This document shows, in pieces, positions 141 through 11,082 of a DNA stretch of 11,082 nucleotides. The stretch's first letter is position 1, and each line of letters begins with the position of its first letter. The position numbers and the translations under genes are program-made. The notes beneath the pieces were generated by a model, which was not told where the DNA came from, made no database searches, and saw nothing but the letters and a program-made list of their open reading frames with translations. Source of the stretch: Asaia bogorensis. Its GTDB lineage: Bacteria; Pseudomonadota; Alphaproteobacteria; Acetobacterales; Acetobacteraceae. The DNA is taken from contig CAMBXJ010000086.1 in NCBI GenBank assembly GCA_945871455.1, positions 1 through 11,082 on the forward strand, written 5' to 3'.

Positions 141-1148
141 ATGACCGAAACCCCGCCCGACGACATCCTGTCCGCGCTCCGTCGCATGGACCTGCTCGCC
201 ACCGGCGCCAACGCGTGGGGGGAGCGTCTGACCGGCGGCGTCTCCTCCGATATCTGGCGCATCGACCGATCGGACGGGTCGATCTGCATCAAGCGCGCGC
301 TCGGGAAACTGCGCGTGGCGGCGGACTGGCGGGCCCCGGTGGAACGCAACCTCTATGAGGCCCGCTGGATGCGCCGCGCCAACGCCGCGGTCGCCGGATC
401 GGCGCCCGCGATCCTCGGGCAGGATCAGGAGTCCGGCGCGCTGGCCATGGCATTCCTGCCCCCGGACGATCACCCGTTGTGGAAAGCGCAACTGCACGAC
501 GGCCACGCCGATCCGGAATTCGCGGCAAAGGTCGCGGACACGCTGGTGCGCATCCACGCCGCCACCGCGTCCGACCCGACGGTCGCGGCGGACTTCCCAA
601 CCGACACGATCTTCTACGACATCCGCCTGGAACCCTATCTGGTGGCGACCGGACGCGCGCTCCCGGACCTCAGCGCCCGGTTCGATGCCCTGGTCGCGAC
701 GACACAGGCCAACAAGCACGCTTTGGTGCATGGCGATGTCAGTCCGAAGAACATCCTGTGCGGCCCGTCCGGTCCCGTCTTCCTGGACGCGGAATGTGCC
801 TGGTGGGGCGATCCGGCCTTCGATCTGGCGTTCTGCCTCAATCACCTGTTGTTGAAATGTCTGTGGACCCCGTCGGCGACGGACGGGTTCCTGGCGTGCT
901 TCGACGCGATGGTGGCGACCTATCGTGCTGGCATCGCTTGGGAATCGCCGGACAGTCTTGAATCCCGCGCCGCCGCCCTGCTGCCCGGGCTATTCCTGGC
1001 CCGGGTGGATGGGAAGTCTCCGGTCGAGTACATCACCCAGGACGCGGACAAGGACCGGGTGCGGCGGGTGGCGCGCCCGCTGATCGCCAATCCGCCGGAC
1101 CGCCTGGCCACCATCCTCCAGGCATGGACAAGGGAACTGACCCGATGA
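141..1148 (+). CDS. APH/choline-kinase-fold phosphotransferase (small-molecule kinase)
   Basis: This is a 335-residue cytosolic kinase of the aminoglycoside phosphotransferase superfamily, which also contains choline, ethanolamine, homoserine and methylthioribose kinases. Family knowledge says it transfers ATP phosphate to a hydroxyl group of a small molecule. Visible signatures are the Brenner catalytic motif HGDVSPKN, with H197, catalytic D199 and N204, and the metal-binding segment LDAE with D216, which takes the place of the usual DFG-like motif. The text after it, WWGDPAFDLAF, is typical of the superfamily. An N-lobe lysine in CIKRALGK near residue 53 may contact ATP. The start at ATG 141 gives an N-terminus (MTETPPDD) usual for this group; a GTG at 114 is the alternative. 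Its stop overlaps the start of the enolase-like gene by ATGA, so translation is probably coupled. The substrate is unknown. Context argues for a metabolic kinase, not antibiotic resistance. Confidence 0.85.
   Translation: MTETPPDDILSALRRMDLLATGANAWGERLTGGVSSDIWRIDRSDGSICIKRALGKLRVAADWRAPVERNLYEARWMRRANAAVAGSAPAILGQDQESGALAMAFLPPDDHPLWKAQLHDGHADPEFAAKVADTLVRIHAATASDPTVAADFPTDTIFYDIRLEPYLVATGRALPDLSARFDALVATTQANKHALVHGDVSPKNILCGPSGPVFLDAECAWWGDPAFDLAFCLNHLLLKCLWTPSATDGFLACFDAMVATYRAGIAWESPDSLESRAAALLPGLFLARVDGKSPVEYITQDADKDRVRRVARPLIANPPDRLATILQAWTRELTR
1130..1148 (+). promoter_or_regulatory. Shine-Dalgarno site and ATGA stop/start overlap
   Basis: AAGGGA at 1130-1135 lies 9 bases before the ATG at 1145, and that ATG overlaps the kinase stop TGA (1146-1148). 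The site fixes the enolase-like start at 1145; the in-frame ATG at 1124 is too early. The overlap suggests translational coupling of kinase and enolase-like protein. Confidence 0.75.
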
Positions 1149-2434
1149 CCGAGACAGCAATCGCCTTCGTGCATGGCCGCCGGGTCTGGGACAGCCGCGG
1201 CCGCCCGACCGTGGAAGCCGACATCCTGCTGGAAGGCGGCGCGGTCGGCCGAGCGATCGCCCCGGCCGGCGCCTCCACCGGATCGGGCGAGGCCCTGGAC
1301 CTGCGCGATGGCGGCGACGCCTTTGGTGGCTTCGATGTGACCCGCGCGGTGGAGCACGTGAACACCGAAATCGCGCGCGCCGTCCGCGGTATGGATGCCT
1401 CGGACCAGGCCGCGCTGGACAGGCGGTTGATCGAACTGGACGGCACGCCCAACAAATCCCGCCTGGGGGCCAACGCCGTGCTGGCGGTGTCCATGGCCGC
1501 CGCCCACGCCGCCGCCGCCGCCGCCGGCCAGCCGCTGTATCGCTATCTGGGCGGGCCGGAGGCCGAGCTGATCCCCCTGCCGCAGATCCAGATTTTCGGC
1601 GGCGGCGCCCATGCCGGCCGCCGTGTCGACATCCAGGACTTCATGGTCATGTGCCCGGCCGCGGCCAACTTCGCCCAGGCGCTGGACTGGACCGCCGAGG
1701 TCTACCGTGCCGCCGGCCTTTTGATGAAGGAAGCCGGCACCCTGGCCGGGGTCGCCGATGAGGGCGGCTGGTGGCCGGTGTTCGCTACCAACGAACAGGC
1801 GCTCGACATGCTGGTTCGCGCCATCGAGCGTGCCGGCTTCCGCCCGGGCGAGCAGGTCGGGATCGCGCTGGACATCGCCGCGTCCGAATTCGGCCACGGC
1901 GGGCGCTACAAATTGGCGCTGGAAGACCGCGAACTCGATACTGGCGACATGATCAAGCTGCTGACCAGCTGGATCGGCCGCTACCCGATCCTTTCCATCG
2001 AGGACCCGCTGGCCGAGGACGATCCCGACGGATTTGCCGAATTCACCCGCCAGGTGGGCCACAAGGTGCAGATCGTCGGCGACGACTTCCTGGTCAGCCA
2101 GGCGTCCCGCGTGCGGGAAGCCGCCTTGCGCGGGGCGGCCAACACCGTCCTGTTGAAGCCCAACCAGCGCGGCACCCTGACGGAAACCGTCGAATGCTGG
2201 GATGCGGCGACGGAATGCGGCTTCTCCGCCATCGTCTCGGCCCGTTCCGGCGAAACCGAGGATACCACCATCGTGCATCTGGCGGTCGGCTGGGGGGCGG
2301 GCCAGCTCAAGGTCGGCAGCTTCGCGCGCAGCGAGCGCATGGCCAAATGGAACGAAATGCTGCGGCTCGAGGAGGCGCTCGGTGCCCGCGCGCATTTTGC
2401 CGGCGGCGGTATTCTGGGCCGGTCGCGCGGATGA
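1145..2434 (+). CDS. Divergent enolase paralogue (phosphopyruvate hydratase-like)
   Basis: This 429-residue protein has the full length and domain order of enolase. The N-terminal part keeps DSRGRPTVE (16-24) and the mobile loop GASTG (S44). The barrel keeps H156, general acid/base E206 (DEGG), metal ligands D243 (ALDIAASEF), E286 (SIEDPL) and D313 (VGDD), catalytic K338 (LLKPNQ), R367/S368 and K389 (LKVGS). It departs from true enolases at three places. The usual SHRSGETED reads SARSGETED, so the phosphate-region His is A366. The usual IQEFM reads IQDFM, so Glu168 (E. coli numbering) is D165. The usual Asn-Gly-Gly before the HA motif is G152-G153-G154, within a rewritten PLPQIQIF strand. It sits between a kinase and a hydroxyacid dehydrogenase. 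I infer that it dehydrates a 2-phospho-3-hydroxy acid other than 2-phosphoglycerate, or has weakened enolase activity. Family membership is sure; the reaction is not. Confidence 0.9.
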   Translation: MTETAIAFVHGRRVWDSRGRPTVEADILLEGGAVGRAIAPAGASTGSGEALDLRDGGDAFGGFDVTRAVEHVNTEIARAVRGMDASDQAALDRRLIELDGTPNKSRLGANAVLAVSMAAAHAAAAAAGQPLYRYLGGPEAELIPLPQIQIFGGGAHAGRRVDIQDFMVMCPAAANFAQALDWTAEVYRAAGLLMKEAGTLAGVADEGGWWPVFATNEQALDMLVRAIERAGFRPGEQVGIALDIAASEFGHGGRYKLALEDRELDTGDMIKLLTSWIGRYPILSIEDPLAEDDPDGFAEFTRQVGHKVQIVGDDFLVSQASRVREAALRGAANTVLLKPNQRGTLTETVECWDAATECGFSAIVSARSGETEDTTIVHLAVGWGAGQLKVGSFARSERMAKWNEMLRLEEALGARAHFAGGGILGRSRG

Positions 2435-2471
2435 AAGTCGTGTCGCACGCGCGGATGAAAGTCGTGTTCCA
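2424..2471 (+). repeat. 24-bp tandem duplication over a start codon
   Basis: Two 24-bp units, 2424-2447 and 2448-2471, are identical for their first 20 bases and 22 of 24 overall. Each carries an ATG (2431 and 2455) followed by AAAGTCGTGT. The first ATG overlaps the enolase-like stop; the second matches the point where the dehydrogenase family usually begins. The duplication adds eight codons in frame (MKVVSHAR). Confidence 0.9.
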
Positions 2472-3387
2472 TACCGCCGCCGGCCCCGATCTGCTGGACC
2501 GGCTGACCAAGGTTCCGGGGCTGGACATCGTCGCATGCCCCGAGAACGACGACGCCTGCCTGATGCGACTGCTGCCGGACTGCGACGTGCTGTGGCACGT
2601 GCTGAAACCCTGCACCGCGGCGATGATCGCGGACGCGCCTCGGTTGCGGCTGATCCAGAAGATCGGCGTCGGCGTCAACACGATCGACCTGGACGCCGCC
2701 AAGGCACGCGGCATTCCGGTCTGCAACCTGCCGGGCACCAACGCCCGCGCGGTCGCGGAACTGACTTTGACCCTGATGCTGGCGGCGATCCGGCGCATCC
2801 CTCGGTTCGATGCCGGGTTGCGCGCCGGGGTCTGGTCCGATCCGGGCTTGCAGGACGGCATCGGGGAACTTGGCGGCAAGACGGTCGGGCTGGTCGGCTA
2901 CGGCGCCATCCCCCGGCTGTTGGCTCCGGTGCTGATCGCGCTTGGCTGTGACGTGATTTTCGCCGCCCGCCGACCCGTTCCGGACGCCGTCGGACGCCAG
3001 GTCGCGCTGGACGCGCTGCTGGCCGAGGCCGACGTGCTCAGCCTGCATGTCCCGCTGACCCCGGATACCGAGCGGATGATCGACGCGGCGGCGCTGGCGC
3101 GGATGAAACCGGGGGCGATCCTGGTCAACACGGCACGCGGCGGTTTGATCGACCAGCCAGCCCTGACCGAAGCCCTGCGATCCAGCCGCCTGGGTGCCGC
3201 GGGCCTGGACGTGTTCGCAACCGAACCCACCGACCCCGCCGATCCGCTGTTCTCGCTGCCCAATGTCGTGGTGACGCCGCATATCGCCTGGATCACCACC
3301 GGCACGTTCGACCGCAGCTTCTCGATCGCCGCCGAGAACTGCCGGCGGATCGCGGCCGGCGAACCCCTGCTGCACCGCGTCGTCTGA
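2431..3387 (+). CDS. D-isomer-specific 2-hydroxyacid dehydrogenase
   Basis: This is a cytosolic NAD(P)-dependent oxidoreductase of the PGDH/CtBP/hydroxypyruvate reductase family, interconverting a 2-oxo acid and a D-2-hydroxy acid. It has 318 residues from ATG 2431, which overlaps the preceding stop, or 310 from ATG 2455. Numbered from 2455, the catalytic triad is R228 (NTARGGLID), E257 (DVFATEP) and H276 (TPHIAW). The Rossmann motif is VGYGAIP, with G148 and G150 but P153 where the third glycine usually stands. The end of strand beta-2 reads IFAARRP, without the Asp typical of NAD-dependent members, which may mean NADP preference (inference). The substrate-side motif KIGVGVNTIDL is also present. 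It lies inside the operon, 16 bp before the PLP enzyme. It could act like a hydroxypyruvate or glyoxylate reductase, but the sequence alone does not settle the substrate. Confidence 0.9.
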   Translation: MKVVSHARMKVVFHTAAGPDLLDRLTKVPGLDIVACPENDDACLMRLLPDCDVLWHVLKPCTAAMIADAPRLRLIQKIGVGVNTIDLDAAKARGIPVCNLPGTNARAVAELTLTLMLAAIRRIPRFDAGLRAGVWSDPGLQDGIGELGGKTVGLVGYGAIPRLLAPVLIALGCDVIFAARRPVPDAVGRQVALDALLAEADVLSLHVPLTPDTERMIDAAALARMKPGAILVNTARGGLIDQPALTEALRSSRLGAAGLDVFATEPTDPADPLFSLPNVVVTPHIAWITTGTFDRSFSIAAENCRRIAAGEPLLHRVV

Positions 3388-3403: not shown

Positions 3404-4651
3404 ATGACCATACGCTTCGAGGATGCCGGCCGCCCGCGCGACGCGGTCCTGACCGCTCTGGAGGACATGCGCGCCGGCGACGCCGATTGGCGCGGCGGGC
3501 GCGTCCCGTTGTACGTCTTCAGCGGCCCGCCGGACGTGCAGGACATCGGCAAATCCGCCTTCAATCTGTTCTTCACCGAAAATGCCCTCGGTGCCCGACG
3601 CGCCTTCCCCAGCCTGCTGCGCATGGAGCAGGAGGTGATCGGGATGGGCCTGGACCTGTTCCACGCGCCGGAGGGCGCAGCGGGGAACATGACCTCGGGC
3701 GGCACCGAAAGCATCCTGATGGCGGTGAAAGCCTGCCGGGACTGGAGCCGGTCCGTGCGTGGCGACCGACAGTTTCGCGGCACCATCCTGGCTCCGGAAA
3801 CCGCGCATCCGGCGTTCGACAAAGCCGCCGCGCTGATGGACCTGACGGTGCGCCGCGTGCCCGCCCGCGCCGATTACCGGGCCGATGTCGCGGCGATGGC
3901 GGCCGCGGTCGATGCCGACACGATGATGCTGGTGGGCTCCGCGCCGTGCTTCCCGTTCGGGGTGATCGACGATCTGGCCGGCCTGTCCGACCTGGCGGTG
4001 CGGCATGGGCTGTGGCTGCACTCGGATGCCTGCGTGGGCGGCTGGATGGCGCCGTTCGCGGCCGAGATCGGACGGACCATCCCGGCCTTTGACCTGGGCT
4101 TGCCGGGGGTGTCGTCGTTGTCGGCGGATTTGCACAAGTTCGGCTTCTGCCCGAAACCGTCCTCCGCCGTGTTCTACCGGTCGGCCGCGTTGCACGCGTT
4201 CCAGGAAATGGCGTTCGATGTGTGGCCGTCCGGGCGGTTCGGCACCCAGACCCTGGTCGGCACCCGGGCAGGTGGGGCGGTGGCGGCGTCCTGGGCCGTG
4301 CTGCGCTATCTGGGGCGCGAAGGCTACCGGCGCATCGCGGTCGAGGTCCTGACCATGCGCGACGCCTATATCGCCGATCTGACCCAGATCCCCGGAATGG
4401 TCATTCGCGGCACGCCGGAGCTGGCCAATATCGCCTTTGGGTGCGACGACATCGACATGGGCCAGGTCTCCACCCGCCTGGGCGAACTGGGCTGGGTGCC
4501 GGGCATGGTGCGGACGCCGCCCAGCCTGCATCTAATGATGTCGCTGCACCACGCCGACGCGCGGGAGGCCTATGTGCGCGATGTTGCGTCCTGCGTCGCC
4601 GCGGTCCGAGCCGGTGGCCAAGGGGTTTCCGCCGAGGTCACCTATGCGTGA
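3404..4651 (+). CDS. PLP-dependent lyase/decarboxylase, sphingosine-1-phosphate lyase-like
   Basis: This 415-residue fold-type I PLP enzyme is closest by motif to the sphingosine-1-phosphate lyase branch of the group II decarboxylase family. That branch cleaves the bond between the amino-bearing and hydroxyl-bearing carbons of phosphorylated amino alcohols. Visible motifs, in order, are the PLP-phosphate loop TSGGTES (97-103), the ring-stacking His in AHPAFDKAA (H135), the run MLVGSAPCFPFGVID, the Asp that pairs with the pyridine nitrogen in HSDACVGG (D208), and the Schiff-base lysine in SADLHKFGF (K245). All are intact. There is no transmembrane segment of the kind that anchors the eukaryotic lyase, so it should be soluble. 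It is preceded by a good ribosome site and follows the dehydrogenase closely. Together with the upstream kinase it could take an amino alcohol, phosphorylate it and split it. That is inference; plain amino-acid decarboxylation is the alternative. Confidence 0.85.
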   Translation: MTIRFEDAGRPRDAVLTALEDMRAGDADWRGGRVPLYVFSGPPDVQDIGKSAFNLFFTENALGARRAFPSLLRMEQEVIGMGLDLFHAPEGAAGNMTSGGTESILMAVKACRDWSRSVRGDRQFRGTILAPETAHPAFDKAAALMDLTVRRVPARADYRADVAAMAAAVDADTMMLVGSAPCFPFGVIDDLAGLSDLAVRHGLWLHSDACVGGWMAPFAAEIGRTIPAFDLGLPGVSSLSADLHKFGFCPKPSSAVFYRSAALHAFQEMAFDVWPSGRFGTQTLVGTRAGGAVAASWAVLRYLGREGYRRIAVEVLTMRDAYIADLTQIPGMVIRGTPELANIAFGCDDIDMGQVSTRLGELGWVPGMVRTPPSLHLMMSLHHADAREAYVRDVASCVAAVRAGGQGVSAEVTYA

Positions 4652-4690: not shown

Positions 4691-4754
4691 ACGTGTCGGC
4701 GGTGGACATCATTCTCCGATCGGCGCCTGCATTCGCGATGCGTGAAGCCCCATG

Positions 4755-4790
4755 GGACCGGACGGCGGACCGGATGGCGGGCCGGATGGC
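4755..4790 (+). repeat. Three 12-bp tandem repeats upstream of the DUF1537 kinase
   Basis: Units at 4755-4766, 4767-4778 and 4779-4790 follow the pattern GGACCGGATGGC with one change in the first and one in the third. If translated in the kinase frame they would give Pro-Asp-Gly-Gly repeats, which are foreign to this enzyme family, so I treat them as non-coding leader. Confidence 0.7.
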
Positions 4791-4829
4791 GGGATCGGGC
4801 CTGTCGATCGCTGGCGGGGCCGGTCGGGG

Positions 4830-5810
4830 ATGACTGTGCTGCGCCTGCTTGCGGACGATCTGACCGGAGCGCTGGACAGCGCCGCGCGCTTCGTCCCGCT
4901 ATGTGGCCCGATTCCGGTGGCATGGTCGTTGGATCATGGTGAAGGCTCCTTCGCCGTGGACACCGGCACGCGGGAGGTCGCACCGGCGGAGGCCATCGCC
5001 GCCGTCACGCGCCATGCCAGCATGCTGACCGGGGCGGATATTGCGTTCAAGAAGATCGACAGCCTGCTGCGCGGCCATGTCGCGGCGGAGTTGCTGGCCT
5101 GCATGGCCGGGTTCGATCACTGCATTCTGGCGCCCGCGTTTCCGTTCCAGGGACGGATCACGCGGGATGGGCGCCAGATGGTGCGGGATGGACCAGATTG
5201 GCGAGATGTCGGCGTCGAGCTGGCGGGACTGCCGGTGCATGACGCGGCGACCGATGCCGACCTGGACAGGATCGTCGCCGCCGGATCGCGGTTGCCCGGG
5301 CGCGTGCTGTGGTGCGGCACCGGCGGTCTGGCGGGCGCCTTGGCGGGACGCCGGGCCGTGCCCTGTCCAGTGCTGGCCGGACCCATTCTGGCCTTGATCG
5401 GGTCGCGCCATCCCACGACCATGACGCAGCTTGCTCGCGTGCCCGACCTGCACCGGATCGTGCCGGTTGGTGCGGCGGTTGGCTTTCCGGGTTCGGCCGC
5501 GGTGACCGTGGATGTCCCCGCCACGATGGATCGGGGCCGAGCGGCCGTTCTGATTGCCGAGACCTTGGTGGCCGTGCTGCACCGGTCGGAACGGCCGAGC
5601 GTGATGTTTGTGAGTGGGGGAGAGACGTTAAGGGCGATTTGCGATGGGCTGGGCGCGACATCGCTGCTCGTGGACGGAGAGATCGAGCCGGGGGCCCCGA
5701 CCTCTGTTCTGTGCGGAGGATTGTGGGACGGGCAGCGCATTGTCTCGAAGTCCGGGGCGTTTGGGGATGCGGGGTTTCTCGGCCGGTTGCTTCGTGGCGG
5801 CAATCGTTAG
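4830..5810 (+). CDS. Four-carbon acid sugar kinase family protein (DUF1537), compact form
   Basis: This 326-residue protein has both halves of the OtnK/DtnK-type (DUF1537) kinases, which phosphorylate four-carbon sugar acids such as 3-oxo-tetronates or threonate. The N-terminal substrate domain shows ADDLTGALD (8-16), FKKIDSLLRG (73-82) and APAFPFQGR near residue 97. The C-terminal nucleotide domain shows SGGET (262-266), EIEPGAP and KSGAFG (307-312). Members are usually about 400 residues or more, so the linker and middle part are shortened here, but no frameshift is visible. ATG 4830 matches the family start. An in-frame ATG at 4752 would add a repeat-encoded tail and has no ribosome site; the site for 4830 is itself weak (GGCGGGG at 4813-4819). 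It is the last gene of the + strand cluster. The usual partners (PdxA2, OtnC, OtnI) are absent, so the substrate is open. Confidence 0.85.
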   Translation: MTVLRLLADDLTGALDSAARFVPLCGPIPVAWSLDHGEGSFAVDTGTREVAPAEAIAAVTRHASMLTGADIAFKKIDSLLRGHVAAELLACMAGFDHCILAPAFPFQGRITRDGRQMVRDGPDWRDVGVELAGLPVHDAATDADLDRIVAAGSRLPGRVLWCGTGGLAGALAGRRAVPCPVLAGPILALIGSRHPTTMTQLARVPDLHRIVPVGAAVGFPGSAAVTVDVPATMDRGRAAVLIAETLVAVLHRSERPSVMFVSGGETLRAICDGLGATSLLVDGEIEPGAPTSVLCGGLWDGQRIVSKSGAFGDAGFLGRLLRGGNR

Positions 5811-7273: not shown

Positions 7274-8200
7274 TCAGACCGTCCCAGAAGGATTGACGAC
7301 GGCATCCACGGCGGCCTGGGCTAGGCTGTTGTCCACGCAGGCGGCGAACGGGATATCCCTCGACAACGCCCCGCCCGAGCGCATGGCCGCCGCCAGCCGA
7401 TCGAACCCCTCCTCTCGCAGCACCGGGTCGGGACCATAGAGGCCCAGCGCCCGATAGCGGTCGATGGCGGCCGCGAAGATCGGCGCCGGCACATCCGGGA
7501 AATATCCGGCCAAGGTCCGCGCCATGTCGTGTCCCGGCGTCGCACGGATCCAGCGCAGCGCACGATAGATCGCGCGCACCATCGCCCCCAGTTCCTCCCG
7601 CCGTTCCGCGATCACCGACCGGCGCGAGACCAGCGTCGTATAGGCGGTCAGGCCCCGGTTTGCCGCCGCGTACCAAAGATGACCGGCGCCCGAAGCCAGC
7701 AACGCCTCCGCATACGGCTGGAACAGTTGCACCGCGTCCAGTCGCCCGTCCCGCAAGGCCACGGTATTGGCGGCCATACTCGGTCCATGCGTGCGATTCA
7801 GGGAGTCGGGATCGATGCCGGCGCGCCGGATATCGTCCTGGAGGCAAAGCCACGGGGTCGGCACCTCCGACACCGAGGCAAACCGTATCCCCACCAGATC
7901 GGCCGGCGAGAAATTCGGCTTCGGTTCCTTGCCAATCACGAAGAACGGATCGCGCGCCACCACATCGCAGAAACACACCAGGTCCGATGCCGGGTCGGCA
8001 TCGTGGGTCAGCAGCACCCGCAGCGGGCCACCCCACATCACGTCAATCCGTCCCGCCCGCAGATCGGCCGCGGTGCGCGCCGGATCGGGCGAGTCCCGCA
8101 AAGCGACCTCCACCTTTTCGGCATCATAGGCGCCGATCGCGTGGGCGGCGTAGAACGGCGCGTAGAACAGGGCGCGGAAATTCTCGGACAGGGTGATCAT
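7274..8200 (-). CDS. NMT1/THI5-type (SsuA-like) ligand-binding protein without signal peptide
   Basis: This 308-residue protein has the two-lobed periplasmic-binding fold of the NMT1/THI5/SsuA group, whose members bind small molecules for ABC import or, in fungi, make the thiamine pyrimidine. Supporting text includes the N-terminal strand and NF-x-x-x-FYAPFYAAHAIG (7-23), ADLRAGRIDVMWGG (45-58), DPFFVIGKEP, SEVPTPWLCLQDD and GRLDAVQLFQPYAE. The start is fixed by AAGGAG 8 bases upstream, and the protein begins directly in the first beta strand. It therefore has no signal peptide or lipobox and should stay in the cytosol. No ABC permease or ATPase is present in the window. It follows the DapA-type gene by 30 bp and is probably co-transcribed. 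C76 and C78 (VCFCD) are not the cysteine motif of fungal Thi5. It may be a cytosolic binding or sensing protein, or an enzyme. Confidence 0.8.
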   Translation of the reverse strand: MITLSENFRALFYAPFYAAHAIGAYDAEKVEVALRDSPDPARTAADLRAGRIDVMWGGPLRVLLTHDADPASDLVCFCDVVARDPFFVIGKEPKPNFSPADLVGIRFASVSEVPTPWLCLQDDIRRAGIDPDSLNRTHGPSMAANTVALRDGRLDAVQLFQPYAEALLASGAGHLWYAAANRGLTAYTTLVSRRSVIAERREELGAMVRAIYRALRWIRATPGHDMARTLAGYFPDVPAPIFAAAIDRYRALGLYGPDPVLREEGFDRLAAAMRSGGALSRDIPFAACVDNSLAQAAVDAVVNPSGTV

Positions 8201-8230: not shown

Positions 8231-9193
8231 TCAGGCGGCGAGATCCAACGCACCGTCCGGACCAATTCCCGCCGCCGCCAGCGCCCGACGCAGCCGTTCC
8301 CGTTCGGCGTCCCCGATACGGACCAACGGCGCACGCACCACGGCGCGGTCCATACGGCCCAGCATGACCAGACACTCCTTCATGCGGTTGTGCATATCCA
8401 GCGCCGGCGCGGCGTAGAACGCCTGCGCAAGCGGATAAATGCGGTCGTTGATGGCCCGCGCCCGCGCCATGTCGTTCGCTTGGACCGCCTGGAACAGCGC
8501 CGCCTGCAGGTCGGGGATGATGCTGCCCGAACCGGACAGCAGCCCGTTGCAGCCCATGGTCAGCGAGTGCATCAGCCACGCCGAGTGCGTGGTCAGCACA
8601 TTCACCGGCCGCGGCAAGGACTGCAGGACGCGGACCTGGCGTTCATGCAGCATCGGGTCGTTGCACCAGTCCTTGATGGCGCGGATATTCGGCACCGCCT
8701 CCGCCAGTATCACCAGCGTGTCCAACGGATAGCTGAGCGTGCTGCGCTCCGGATACGCAAAGACGATGATCGGCAGATCGGTCGCCGCGGCGATGGCCGA
8801 GAAATGCGCGATCGCCATTTCCGGCCGCAACTGCCCGCCCATCGAGAACACTTGCGACGGAAACACCAACAGCGCGGAGGCGCCGTGGCTGGCCGCCATG
8901 CGCGCGATCCGCGCGGCCTGGTCGGAGCCATCGGCCCAGACGCCGCTGATCACCGGCAGGCGGTCGCCCACTTCCTCCATCGTCACATCCAGGATGCGCC
9001 GTTGCTCCTCGAACGTGCAGGCATGCACTTCTGACGCGTGACCGTTGACGGTGATGGCCGACAGGCCGCGCGTGGCGGCGACATCGCGCAAATGCCGGCG
9101 CGTGCCACGTTCGTCGATGCTGCAATCGTCATTCAGGGCGAGCAACGTCGCCGGGATGACGCCATGCGGCACGTCGTCCTTGAATCGTGGCAT
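8231..9193 (-). CDS. DapA-superfamily aldolase/lyase, not a true dihydrodipicolinate synthase
   Basis: This 320-residue TIM-barrel protein belongs to the DapA/N-acetylneuraminate lyase superfamily, which forms a Schiff base between a lysine and a 2-oxo acid and then makes or breaks a C-C bond or dehydrates. The Schiff-base lysine is K174 in IRAIKDW. The start of the barrel reads GVIPATLLALNDD. The hallmark GTTGE loop is replaced by NGHASEV (50-56). The catalytic Tyr of YNVP is Phe in VFAYPERS (F145), with a Tyr two residues later (Y147). Lysine biosynthesis is therefore unlikely; a sugar-acid or other oxo-acid aldolase/dehydratase is more probable. A longer in-frame start at 9283 exists, but AGGAGG 7 bases upstream marks ATG 9193. 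It is followed 30 bp later by the binding-protein gene, and is separated by 225 bp from the glycoside hydrolase upstream. Confidence 0.85.
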   Translation of the reverse strand: MPRFKDDVPHGVIPATLLALNDDCSIDERGTRRHLRDVAATRGLSAITVNGHASEVHACTFEEQRRILDVTMEEVGDRLPVISGVWADGSDQAARIARMAASHGASALLVFPSQVFSMGGQLRPEMAIAHFSAIAAATDLPIIVFAYPERSTLSYPLDTLVILAEAVPNIRAIKDWCNDPMLHERQVRVLQSLPRPVNVLTTHSAWLMHSLTMGCNGLLSGSGSIIPDLQAALFQAVQANDMARARAINDRIYPLAQAFYAAPALDMHNRMKECLVMLGRMDRAVVRAPLVRIGDAERERLRRALAAAGIGPDGALDLAA

Positions 9194-9200
9194 GCTGTGT

Positions 9201-9206
9201 CCTCCT
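9201..9206 (-). promoter_or_regulatory. Shine-Dalgarno site deciding the DapA-like start
   Basis: AGGAGG, a perfect core on the minus strand, lies 7 bases before the ATG whose first base is 9193. It excludes the longer in-frame start at 9283. Confidence 0.85.
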
Positions 9207-9313
9207 GCCTGGTCGTTCCGGTCGACGATAACCCGCATTCCGTGGCTGCGCATCCGGTTTTCCGAGGATAGGCGGGCCGACATTCAGACACCAGACAGCT
9301 TACCTTGGACCTC

Positions 9314-9418: not shown

Positions 9419-11082
9419 CTAACGCGGCGCCACCGGCAGCACCACGATCGTTCGTTCCGTGCTGCCCCCGCCCAGGCGGTCCGTCGCTCGGACCACCCAC
9501 TGGCCGGTCGGATCGTTCAATGCCAGCCGCAGCAGCCACGGGGTTGGCCCGGTCCCGACAGCGACGTTCTCCGTCAGCCGGTCGCGGGTTTGTCCAAGCG
9601 GGTCGATGACCTCGACATGCAGGATGTGGGTTGCACTGGTGGCCGCGACGCCGCCGGATAACGCCGCCAGGCCGATTTGCAGCGGCACCAAGGAGCCGAC
9701 GTCGACCGAATCCGGTCCGGACAGCATCGGTTTCCTGGGCGGGGTGGGCGAGATGGCCAGCAGCAAAGGCCCATCCGCCGGCAGGCTCACCGCGACCCGA
9801 TCGGTGAAAACCGCCGGACCGCCGCCGCGCAGATCGCTGACCCAGGCAGGCGCCGGAAGCGTCAGGGTCATGGGCTCGGACACGCCATCGGGCGCGGCCA
9901 TCACGGATACCAACCTGACACCGCCGGCTTGCCATCGACGCAGTTCCGCGCCCAACGCCGGTTTCCCCTCGGCCGTTTGCAGCGCATAGGCCGGCACGCC
10001 GCCCGCCCCCCGCAGCAACCCGGCAAACGCCACCCACGCATCGACGGCGGTCGCGTCGGACGGGCCTGACGGCGATGGCGCAGAAACCGTCGCGTCCGCG
10101 GGCGGCCGACCACGCGCCGGTGCGGCGGTGGCCAACGCCAATGGGCGGCCGATGGCGACCCCGTCCAACGCCGAGACCGGCCGTCGGCGCCCGTGACCAT
10201 CGAACAGCCCGGCCGGACCGTCGGCGAGGACCAACCCGCCCACGGCTGCGAATTCGCGCACGGCGGCGGCCTCCCGGTCGGACAGAGCGATGACCTGGGG
10301 CAGAATCAGAACGCGCACGCCTTCGGCGAACAGCGATTTCGCGCCGGTTGCCGCCCCCAGCAGATTCGGCGACAGAAAGCGCGGGCGAACCCCCAACCCG
10401 ACCAGATGCCGCATCGTTTGCGCCAGGGACCGACGATCGGCGGTCGGGTGCTCGTGCTCGGTCTCCGCGTCGCGCGTTTGCCAGGCGATCCCGTCCGCCC
10501 GACGTTCCAGCAGCCAATGCACCCGGAAACTTGGTGGCGACACCAGGACCGCCACCGGATCCACCGGTGCCGTTGCCGCGGCGATCTGAGTCGGCAGACC
10601 GTTGCGCAATTCGGCGATCGCCGGCGCCAGATCGCGTCCGCGCGGGCCGATCTGCCCGTCCTCGGTGACGATGTCGCCCTGCCCGTCCCACAGGATGACA
10701 CCACGACTGCCCAGCAACGCCTGCCGCCAGAGTTCCCGCCGCTGCTCAGTTCCTTGACCAAAACTGGTGCTGAGCACGATCAGGGCCGGGTTCAAGGACC
10801 GTGCGATTTCCACGTTGTGGCCGGCGTTGCCCGCCTCCATCAGGTCCACCGTGTGGGCGAGCCTTGTGTAATCGAAGCCCCCCCAGCCGGGGACCTGCAT
10901 GCCCTCGATCGCGGACAGGGCGGATGGGTCGGCGGCGTGGATGGCGTCGGTGCCGGCCCGCAACGCGCGGGCGAAGGCCTCATCCATCCAGTCCTTGAAA
11001 TCCGACCAGGCCGCGAAATTGTCGTCCGCCTGGCGGAGCGCGGCGTCGGTCAGCATCGGCATGACCTGGGCCCAGGTGGCAT
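9419..11082 (-). CDS. GH42-like glycoside hydrolase (beta-galactosidase family), 5' end cut by window
   Basis: The reading frame runs through the right edge, so the start and N-terminal part of the barrel are missing; 553 residues are visible. The ATG at 11062 is probably internal, since the frame continues upstream with AT-WAQVM in the same style. Near the edge, WSDFKDWMDEAF and AIEGMQVPGWGGFDY, followed by EAGNAGHNVEIARSLNP, resemble the catalytic barrel of large GH42-like enzymes. The Glu in IEGMQ (codon 10904-10906) is a possible active-site residue, unproven. Next comes a flavodoxin-like segment (SLFAEGVRVLILPQVIALSDREAAAVREFAAVGG, split by me as one region around 10,350-10,230) like the beta-galactosidase trimerisation domain. 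The C-terminus is a beta-rich Ig-like domain (DVGSLVPLQIGL, HVEVIDPLGQT, GQWVVRATDRLGG). It should act on beta-galactosides or other glycans; location cannot be judged without the N-terminus. Confidence 0.7.
   Translation of the reverse strand, partial: ATWAQVMPMLTDAALRQADDNFAAWSDFKDWMDEAFARALRAGTDAIHAADPSALSAIEGMQVPGWGGFDYTRLAHTVDLMEAGNAGHNVEIARSLNPALIVLSTSFGQGTEQRRELWRQALLGSRGVILWDGQGDIVTEDGQIGPRGRDLAPAIAELRNGLPTQIAAATAPVDPVAVLVSPPSFRVHWLLERRADGIAWQTRDAETEHEHPTADRRSLAQTMRHLVGLGVRPRFLSPNLLGAATGAKSLFAEGVRVLILPQVIALSDREAAAVREFAAVGGLVLADGPAGLFDGHGRRRPVSALDGVAIGRPLALATAAPARGRPPADATVSAPSPSGPSDATAVDAWVAFAGLLRGAGGVPAYALQTAEGKPALGAELRRWQAGGVRLVSVMAAPDGVSEPMTLTLPAPAWVSDLRGGGPAVFTDRVAVSLPADGPLLLAISPTPPRKPMLSGPDSVDVGSLVPLQIGLAALSGGVAATSATHILHVEVIDPLGQTRDRLTENVAVGTGPTPWLLRLALNDPTGQWVVRATDRLGGGSTERTIVVLPVAPR

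Follow-up and report, generated by a model that had tools for sequence, protein, structure and literature searches.

An enolase subfamily in which an altered active site is fixed, and its linked APH-fold kinase: possibly a two-gene module for an altered substrate

We found that the enolase paralogue encoded at positions 1145 to 2434 (forward strand) of a contig from Asaia bogorensis is a member of a separate enolase subfamily, in which an altered active site is fixed. The window, which is the whole stretch of DNA analysed, is 11,082 nucleotides long. The preliminary description of this DNA had presented a single odd paralogue, and what is new here is that the paralogue belongs to a fixed subfamily whose members nearly always have a kinase partner. 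Judging from homology and gene neighbourhood, we lean toward the view that the kinase and the paralogue form a two-gene module, in which the paralogue would take the second step and act on an altered substrate.

The enolase family is usually regarded as having a single reaction, and in plasmid records the genes of the present branch carry the label 'eno: phosphopyruvate hydratase'. Should the branch have another activity, this annotation is wrong, and so are the metabolic models that rely on it. The kinase-plus-enolase pair would then be a new catabolic module and a new route by which the breakdown of sugar acids or aromatic fragments feeds central metabolism, hidden under an automatic label. 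Among the matches listed in a search of the open-access literature, a scope outside which most subscription papers lie, no description of the branch or of the kinase-enolase module was found.

The enolase paralogue and its subfamily

The gene encodes 429 amino acid residues with no internal stop, and its ATG (position 1145) lies 4 bp inside the end of the upstream kinase gene, the stop codon of which ends at 1148. Pfam Enolase_N (169.1 bits, positions 1-131 of 131) and Enolase_C (291.5 bits, positions 3-290 of 296) both match the protein, as does NCBIfam TIGR01060 (eno) with 500.6 bits, above the equivalog cut-off of 300; the paralogue is a full-length enolase homologue, as had been claimed. 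The AF2 model has a pLDDT of 89.0, with the active-site loop 155-158 below 50. The nearest solved folds are the enolases 4Z17 and 7CLL (about 50% identity; TM 0.93-0.94 to 4Z17), and enolases alone appear among the 50 matches listed in the fold search.

The metal ligands, the Lys base, the Glu acid, the phosphate Arg/Ser, and the carboxylate Lys are all present (D243, E286, D313, K338, E206, R367, S368, K389, and S44). These residues, together with H156, occupy the positions given for them in the preliminary description, and so do the three replacements that it had reported, A366, D165, and a Gly for Asn (at 152). At the places by which a housekeeping enolase is recognised, namely the Glu of QEF(M), the His of SHRSGE, and the Asn of NGG, the paralogue thus has D165, A366, and G152, respectively.

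We aligned 93 distinct related proteins (from the window, close and distant relatives, and plasmid copies) with 25 canonical rows, of which 22 are distinct. G152, D165, and A366 were found in all 93 paralogues and in none of the canonical rows, all 25 of which have N152, E165, and H366. Additional group-specific residues are Q149, R160, A204, W210, V390, and W402 (93 of 93 paralogues) as well as W15 and A41 (91 of 91; two rows do not reach these positions); the preliminary list did not include them. The same-genus copies L003-L026, which carry the signature where covered, were kept outside the 93, and the Sphingobium protein L116 was counted apart. R342 of the NQRG motif was rejected as a substrate-binding residue because it is not conserved in the group.

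An unrooted tree of 57 rows was built by a quick likelihood method without bootstrap. In it, 36 paralogues formed one branch (SH-aLRT 100) and 18 canonical enolases formed their own (SH-aLRT 99). Three divergent members constituted a third branch (99), leaving between the other two. This tree supersedes an earlier FastTree rooting, in which the support for the core group was 0.388. The divergent sister members, from Sphingobium (L116), Methylobacterium nodulans (L157), and Rhodococcus (L158), are 47-49% identical to the window protein; they keep D165, A204, and A366, and have S152 and S210. A phylogeny against housekeeping enolases had been suggested as a check in the preliminary description, and the separate branch obtained, the complete conservation of the signature, and the intact core residues together bear out its claim of an altered site in which the residues of the catalytic chemistry are kept. 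The kinase-enolase pair was seen mainly in Proteobacteria, and also in Acidobacteriota and Binatota assemblies, with the sister group extending to Actinomycetota. As it is present in many separate assemblies, a genome-specific artefact was rejected.

The paralogue is like the housekeeping enolase (EC 4.2.1.11; TIGR01060, PF03952 and PF00113) in its full-length fold, its approximately 50% identity to the nearest solved protein, and its catalytic residues, but it differs by A366, D165, G152, Q149, R160, A204, W210, V390, and W402, by its separate branch, and by its linkage to a kinase. Carboxyphosphonoenolpyruvate synthase of phosphonate biosynthesis is an enolase homologue with a changed reaction, which the paralogue may resemble in this respect. 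No match was found in the open-access literature for this synthase named together with enolase.

A second enolase in the same genomes

Genomes that bear the paralogue normally hold a second enolase. Within the genus, the paralogue was found over at least 355 residues in 24 of 32 genomes, and fragments were found in 2 more. Matches in the canonical identity range (45-49%) were also present in 21 of the 24 carriers (one partial, in G015); the other 3 are at most 80% complete. At the class level, we searched 290 genomes, for which 95% completeness was asked, with the window's own genome as the exception. Among the matches listed, the scores separated into an upper group of at least 603 bits and a lower one of no more than 532 bits, and all 23 other genomes in the upper group (all at least 95% complete) had two or more enolase matches. 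These 23 were assigned to the paralogue by score, with the signature confirmed for G056 (L029) only. The second matches of 13 of the 23, among the matches listed, scored 508-526 bits, which is the canonical range.

The preliminary description had held that its reading would fail if the genome contained no other enolase. In the window's own MAG, neither a protein search nor a PF00113 search found one, which speaks for this objection; against it, the MAG is 85% complete and its relatives carry a second enolase. The closest relative found (G032) has a 97%-identical paralogue and a canonical enolase (L135). When both flanks of this canonical gene were searched for in the window's assembly (40 candidate places scored in each search), only bases 3-155 of the 1,400 upstream bases matched well (93%), the rest of the matches being weaker and at most 155 bases long, and the matches to the 3,001 downstream bases all lay within 44-210 (67-90%). 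The paralogue's own region, compared between the two assemblies, matched at 84-89%. Because complete relatives have two enolases and the neighbourhood of the G032 canonical gene is essentially absent from the window's assembly, we rejected the idea that the paralogue is the sole enolase of the organism.

The linked kinase and the variable neighbourhood

The kinase gene lies at 114 to 1148 on the forward strand, taken from a GTG at 114; an ATG at 141 is an alternative in-frame start. This linked gene, the main clue in our analysis, was absent from the finding of the preliminary description. The protein is an APH-fold small-molecule kinase, methylthioribose-kinase-like, which we propose as a candidate 2-kinase of a 2,3-dihydroxy acid. 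Pfam gave APH (56.9 bits), a sub-threshold Fructosamin_kin match, and nothing else. H195, G196, D197, N202, and D214 are invariant in 37 rows. The AF2 model (residues from 147 on) has a pLDDT of 94.8, and its best solved folds are the MTR kinases 2PYW and 2PUN. Although 5-methylthioribose kinase is thus the best solved fold (TM about 0.8) and also the best PDB profile match, the identity is 14-16%, the NCBIfam MTRK score of 49.2 bits is far under the cut-off of 275, so that the protein is not classed as a methylthioribose kinase, and the present kinase is linked to an enolase.

We studied 95 loci, which comprised those of 80 of 214 relatives, 14 chosen plasmid loci, and the window. L122, L123, and L160, which are canonical by signature, were outside this set. 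The kinase gene was found in 93 loci. In 85 of these it immediately precedes the enolase gene on the same strand, and in 2 it immediately follows it; 2 loci have it further upstream, and 4 carry it on the opposite strand. No kinase was detected in L094, nor in L159, which lies near a record edge and has a D-2-hydroxyacid dehydrogenase (HADH) gene. HADH was found in 42 of the 95 loci, in 31 of them directly after the enolase gene, and an FAA-type hydrolase (FAH) was found in 13. Among the 83 loci in which the gene caller found the enolase, 12 had the enolase with the kinase alone. In the sister group, the order is HADH-APH-ENO in Sphingobium, FAH-HADH-ENO-APH-FAH in Rhodococcus, and ENO-APH in Methylobacterium nodulans. 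The linkage between kinase and enolase outlasts gene re-ordering, which argues for a joint function. Since the surrounding genes vary and the enolase can occur with the kinase alone, the pair is the unit, and the other genes are a variable supply.

The preliminary description had placed the paralogue in a catabolic operon. This holds for the kinase, the enolase, and often the dehydrogenase, which recur together, but not for the two genes that follow in the window. The dehydrogenase gene (2431 to 3387, forward strand; Pfam 2-Hacid_dh_C, 185.7 bits, run from 2428) encodes a D-2-hydroxyacid dehydrogenase of the NAD type, the proposed supplier of a 2-hydroxy acid; R237, E266, and H285 are invariant in 16 rows. 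The next gene (3404 to 4651, forward strand) encodes a PLP-dependent enzyme of the sphingosine-1-phosphate lyase or MfnA type, with S1P lyase as the best PDB match (244.6 bits) and an NCBIfam MfnA score (237 bits) below the cut-off. It was found in 1 of the 95 loci, this one only, and is probably a locus-specific neighbour outside the core. A short DUF1537-type (four-carbon acid sugar kinase-like) protein, encoded at 4752 to 5810 on the forward strand with partial PF07005 and PF17042 matches, is accessory and was found in 4 of the 95 loci.

The wider neighbourhoods are diverse. In Paracoccus and Roseibium, the order kinase-enolase-FAH-SDR is followed by sugar ABC transporter genes. L119 has a UxuA-like protein, an SMP-30 lactonase, a protein with no Pfam match, the kinase, the enolase, FAH, and one further gene, and L104 has the kinase, the enolase, FAH, SDR, an ILVD-type dehydratase, and SDR. 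In L096, a mannonate dehydratase gene (above the cut-off) lies upstream of the kinase gene, with FAH and SDR on the other strand. The FAH proteins of L104 and L096 scored 349 and 398 bits, respectively, against the 2,4-didehydro-3-deoxy-L-rhamnonate hydrolase model, with a cut-off of 500. By its pathway, such a hydrolase would give pyruvate and a 2-hydroxy acid, which would be glycerate if the starting hexonate is an ordinary one. In L054, DUF1537 and PdxA genes lie downstream, a pairing that we take to be as in tetronate catabolism. An HpaD-like dioxygenase homologue was found in five loci, and the one scored (L112) was below the HpaD cut-off. In three rhizobial plasmids, a PEP carboxylase gene adjoins the genes for the kinase and the HADH, which lie on the strand opposite to the enolase gene; in the one translated, what we take to be the PEPC motifs are readable. 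We gave no weight to TauE, ILVD, and PfkB genes in loci of the L055/L083 type, since several neighbours are common to these loci.

Candidate reactions and substrates

With the two-metal site, Lys338, and Glu206 kept, the natural reading of the paralogue would be abstraction of an alpha proton and beta-elimination from a 2-phospho-3-hydroxy acid. In the reaction order that we infer from homology and neighbourhood, a small (2R)-2,3-dihydroxy acid would come either from an FAA-type C-C hydrolase or from the HADH, through reduction of a 2-oxo-3-hydroxy acid, and the APH-fold kinase would phosphorylate the C2 hydroxyl of the dihydroxy acid. The paralogue, with two Mg ions, Lys338 as the base, and Glu206 as the acid, would then remove the alpha proton and eliminate the C3 hydroxyl, and the phosphoenol acid thus formed may join central metabolism. 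The site of phosphorylation and the product are likewise putative.

The replacements E165D, H366A, and N152G each shorten a side chain, so that the pocket is probably wider. In yeast enolase, His373, Glu168, and Asn152 presumably line the C3 side of the pocket, and the three smaller side chains would suit a substrate with a larger or differently placed group at C3. Rather than D-2-phosphoglycerate, the paralogue probably prefers a near analogue, such as a C3-substituted acid (for example, 2-phosphotetronate) or an isomer. D165 corresponds to Glu163 of Mycobacterium tuberculosis enolase, which is placed in VDIQ-E-FMVA by a mutagenic primer in PMC10619443; there, the alanine mutants are described as non-functional except for S42A, so that position 165 matters for the 2-PG/PEP reaction. 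We give about an even chance to a second enolase reaction of this kind, in which a hitherto unrecognised APH-fold kinase would 2-phosphorylate a dihydroxy acid that is not D-glycerate, and an enolase whose C3 pocket has been rebuilt would dehydrate it. With the fixed residues and the adjacent kinase, the substrate is directly testable with two purified proteins.

The main rival is an ordinary route from glycerate to PEP, in which hydroxypyruvate or a sugar-acid fragment is converted to D-glycerate, the APH protein represents a glycerate 2-kinase of a new class, and the paralogue acts as a genuine 2-PG enolase that tolerates the changed residues. Its TIGR01060 score, well above the 'phosphopyruvate hydratase' cut-off, counts against an altered substrate. 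So do the contexts with FAH and UxuA, in which FAH, SDR, and a dehydratase predict pyruvate and glycerate, the mannonate dehydratase of L096, which predicts D-glycerate, and the 45 of the 95 loci that have, in the stretch covered, the kinase but neither HADH nor FAH beside it. The PEP carboxylase gene of the three rhizobial loci would fit PEP as the product, and loci with the enolase and the kinase alone are also expected with this product. Glycerate dehydrogenases are among the solved relatives of the HADH, although the best matches are phosphoglycerate dehydrogenases, and in Cupriavidus an extra enolase of canonical signature lies beside pyruvate kinase and glycerate kinase, which shows that such modules exist.

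However, drift would not give identity in 93 of 93 paralogues at three positions that differ in 25 of 25 canonical rows, and, besides the pair, these genomes already contain another enolase and a glycerate kinase of the class II type. The window's own genome has PF13660, which we take to be the domain of class II glycerate kinase, as do 19 of the 20 same-genus relatives examined; a search of the window's assembly for a class I glycerate kinase found none. Thus, conversion of D-glycerate to PEP is probably already covered, which weakens the ordinary route. A class II (MOFRL) glycerate kinase followed by enolase would give the same net conversion if the substrate of the pair is glycerate, but that kinase belongs to a Pfam family other than that of the APH kinase, and PF13660 is separate in the same genome. 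Three classes of glycerate kinase are described in PMC2063504, and by Pfam matches the present kinase fits none of classes I-III as defined there. We regard the ordinary route as possible but doubtful.

A leaving group other than hydroxide at C3 is quite improbable. For example, 2-phospho-3-sulfolactate might lose sulfite to give PEP, which is the phosphosulfolactate synthase reaction in reverse. Such a substrate would explain the wider pocket and the Arg fixed at position 160, and its product would require no additional gene; the shortened side chains lie, as we assume, on the leaving-group side. A TauE-type exporter cluster occurs in six loci (annotated from L083), and the window encodes an NMT1-like binding protein with a weak SsuA-family match (27.2 bits, cut-off 163.5). 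However, the TauE gene is on the other strand, and the six loci share several other neighbours and may therefore be one observation. No other sulfonate gene was found among the annotated neighbours, which are part of all neighbours, and E206 and D165 would repel a sulfonate.

It is hardly credible that the paralogue is a non-catalytic structural or regulatory partner of the kinase, as the loss of two residues that canonical rows otherwise keep fixed might suggest, since the base, the acid, the metal ligands, the phosphate Arg/Ser, and the carboxylate Lys are present in every row covering them, and the replacement residues are fixed rather than drifting.

The PLP enzyme and DUF1537 genes

The window encodes a PLP enzyme resembling sphingosine-1-phosphate lyase and MfnA (3404-4651), which lies between the dehydrogenase gene (2431-3387) and the DUF1537 gene. 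Among the 95 paralogue loci studied, window included, this gene was found only in the window locus; in L032, the relative's locus whose enolase is 97% identical to that of the window, the DUF1537 gene directly follows the dehydrogenase gene, with no PLP gene between them. The assembly containing L032 is titled as a Nitrosovibrio metagenome-assembled genome (MAG), and those containing the loci L056 and L085 as Bordetella parapertussis MAGs. These names, taken from the MAG titles, look doubtful.

The DUF1537 kinase-like protein is short both in the window (4752-5810, 352 aa) and in the locus L088 (10247-11278, 344 aa). As the matches in these two copies were limited to the first half of the SBD_N domain and roughly the second half of the NBD_C domain, both appear to lack the central part of a typical protein of this kind or to have diverged there. 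L032 and another relative's locus, L054, also have short copies, as judged by length only, the domain scan having covered the window and L088 copies.

Minus-strand genes at the window end

On the minus strand, Pfam identified an NMT1-like binding protein (7274-8200) adjoining a DHDPS-family aldolase/dehydratase (8231-9283), and this gene pair is possibly a separate transport-catabolism unit. A further minus-strand protein of at least 547 aa (9419-11080) extends towards the window end, and searches of Pfam and NCBIfam at an E-value of 0.001 gave no match to it.

Additional enolases and plasmid loci

Three same-genus genomes (G029, G006, and G024) contain a third enolase (L140, L141, and L142, respectively), canonical by signature; the two included in the tree formed a separate long branch. 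An additional enolase with the canonical signature was found on a Cupriavidus pinatubonensis plasmid (L123), where, together with nearby genes for pyruvate kinase, glycerate kinase, and a TRAP transporter, it makes up an apparent glycerate-to-pyruvate module. On the plasmid of Rhizobium sp. RCAM05350 (L121), the match to the paralogue was split in two pieces and the annotation of the region contains no enolase gene; thus, this copy may be broken.

Three Rhizobium plasmids (L112, L113, and L120) carry a PEP carboxylase gene adjoining the kinase and dehydrogenase genes. The L112 protein contains TAHPTE, GYSDSNKDGG, and FHGRGGSVGRGGGP, and the top match of the plasmid PEP carboxylase among solved structures was 1fiy (485 bits).
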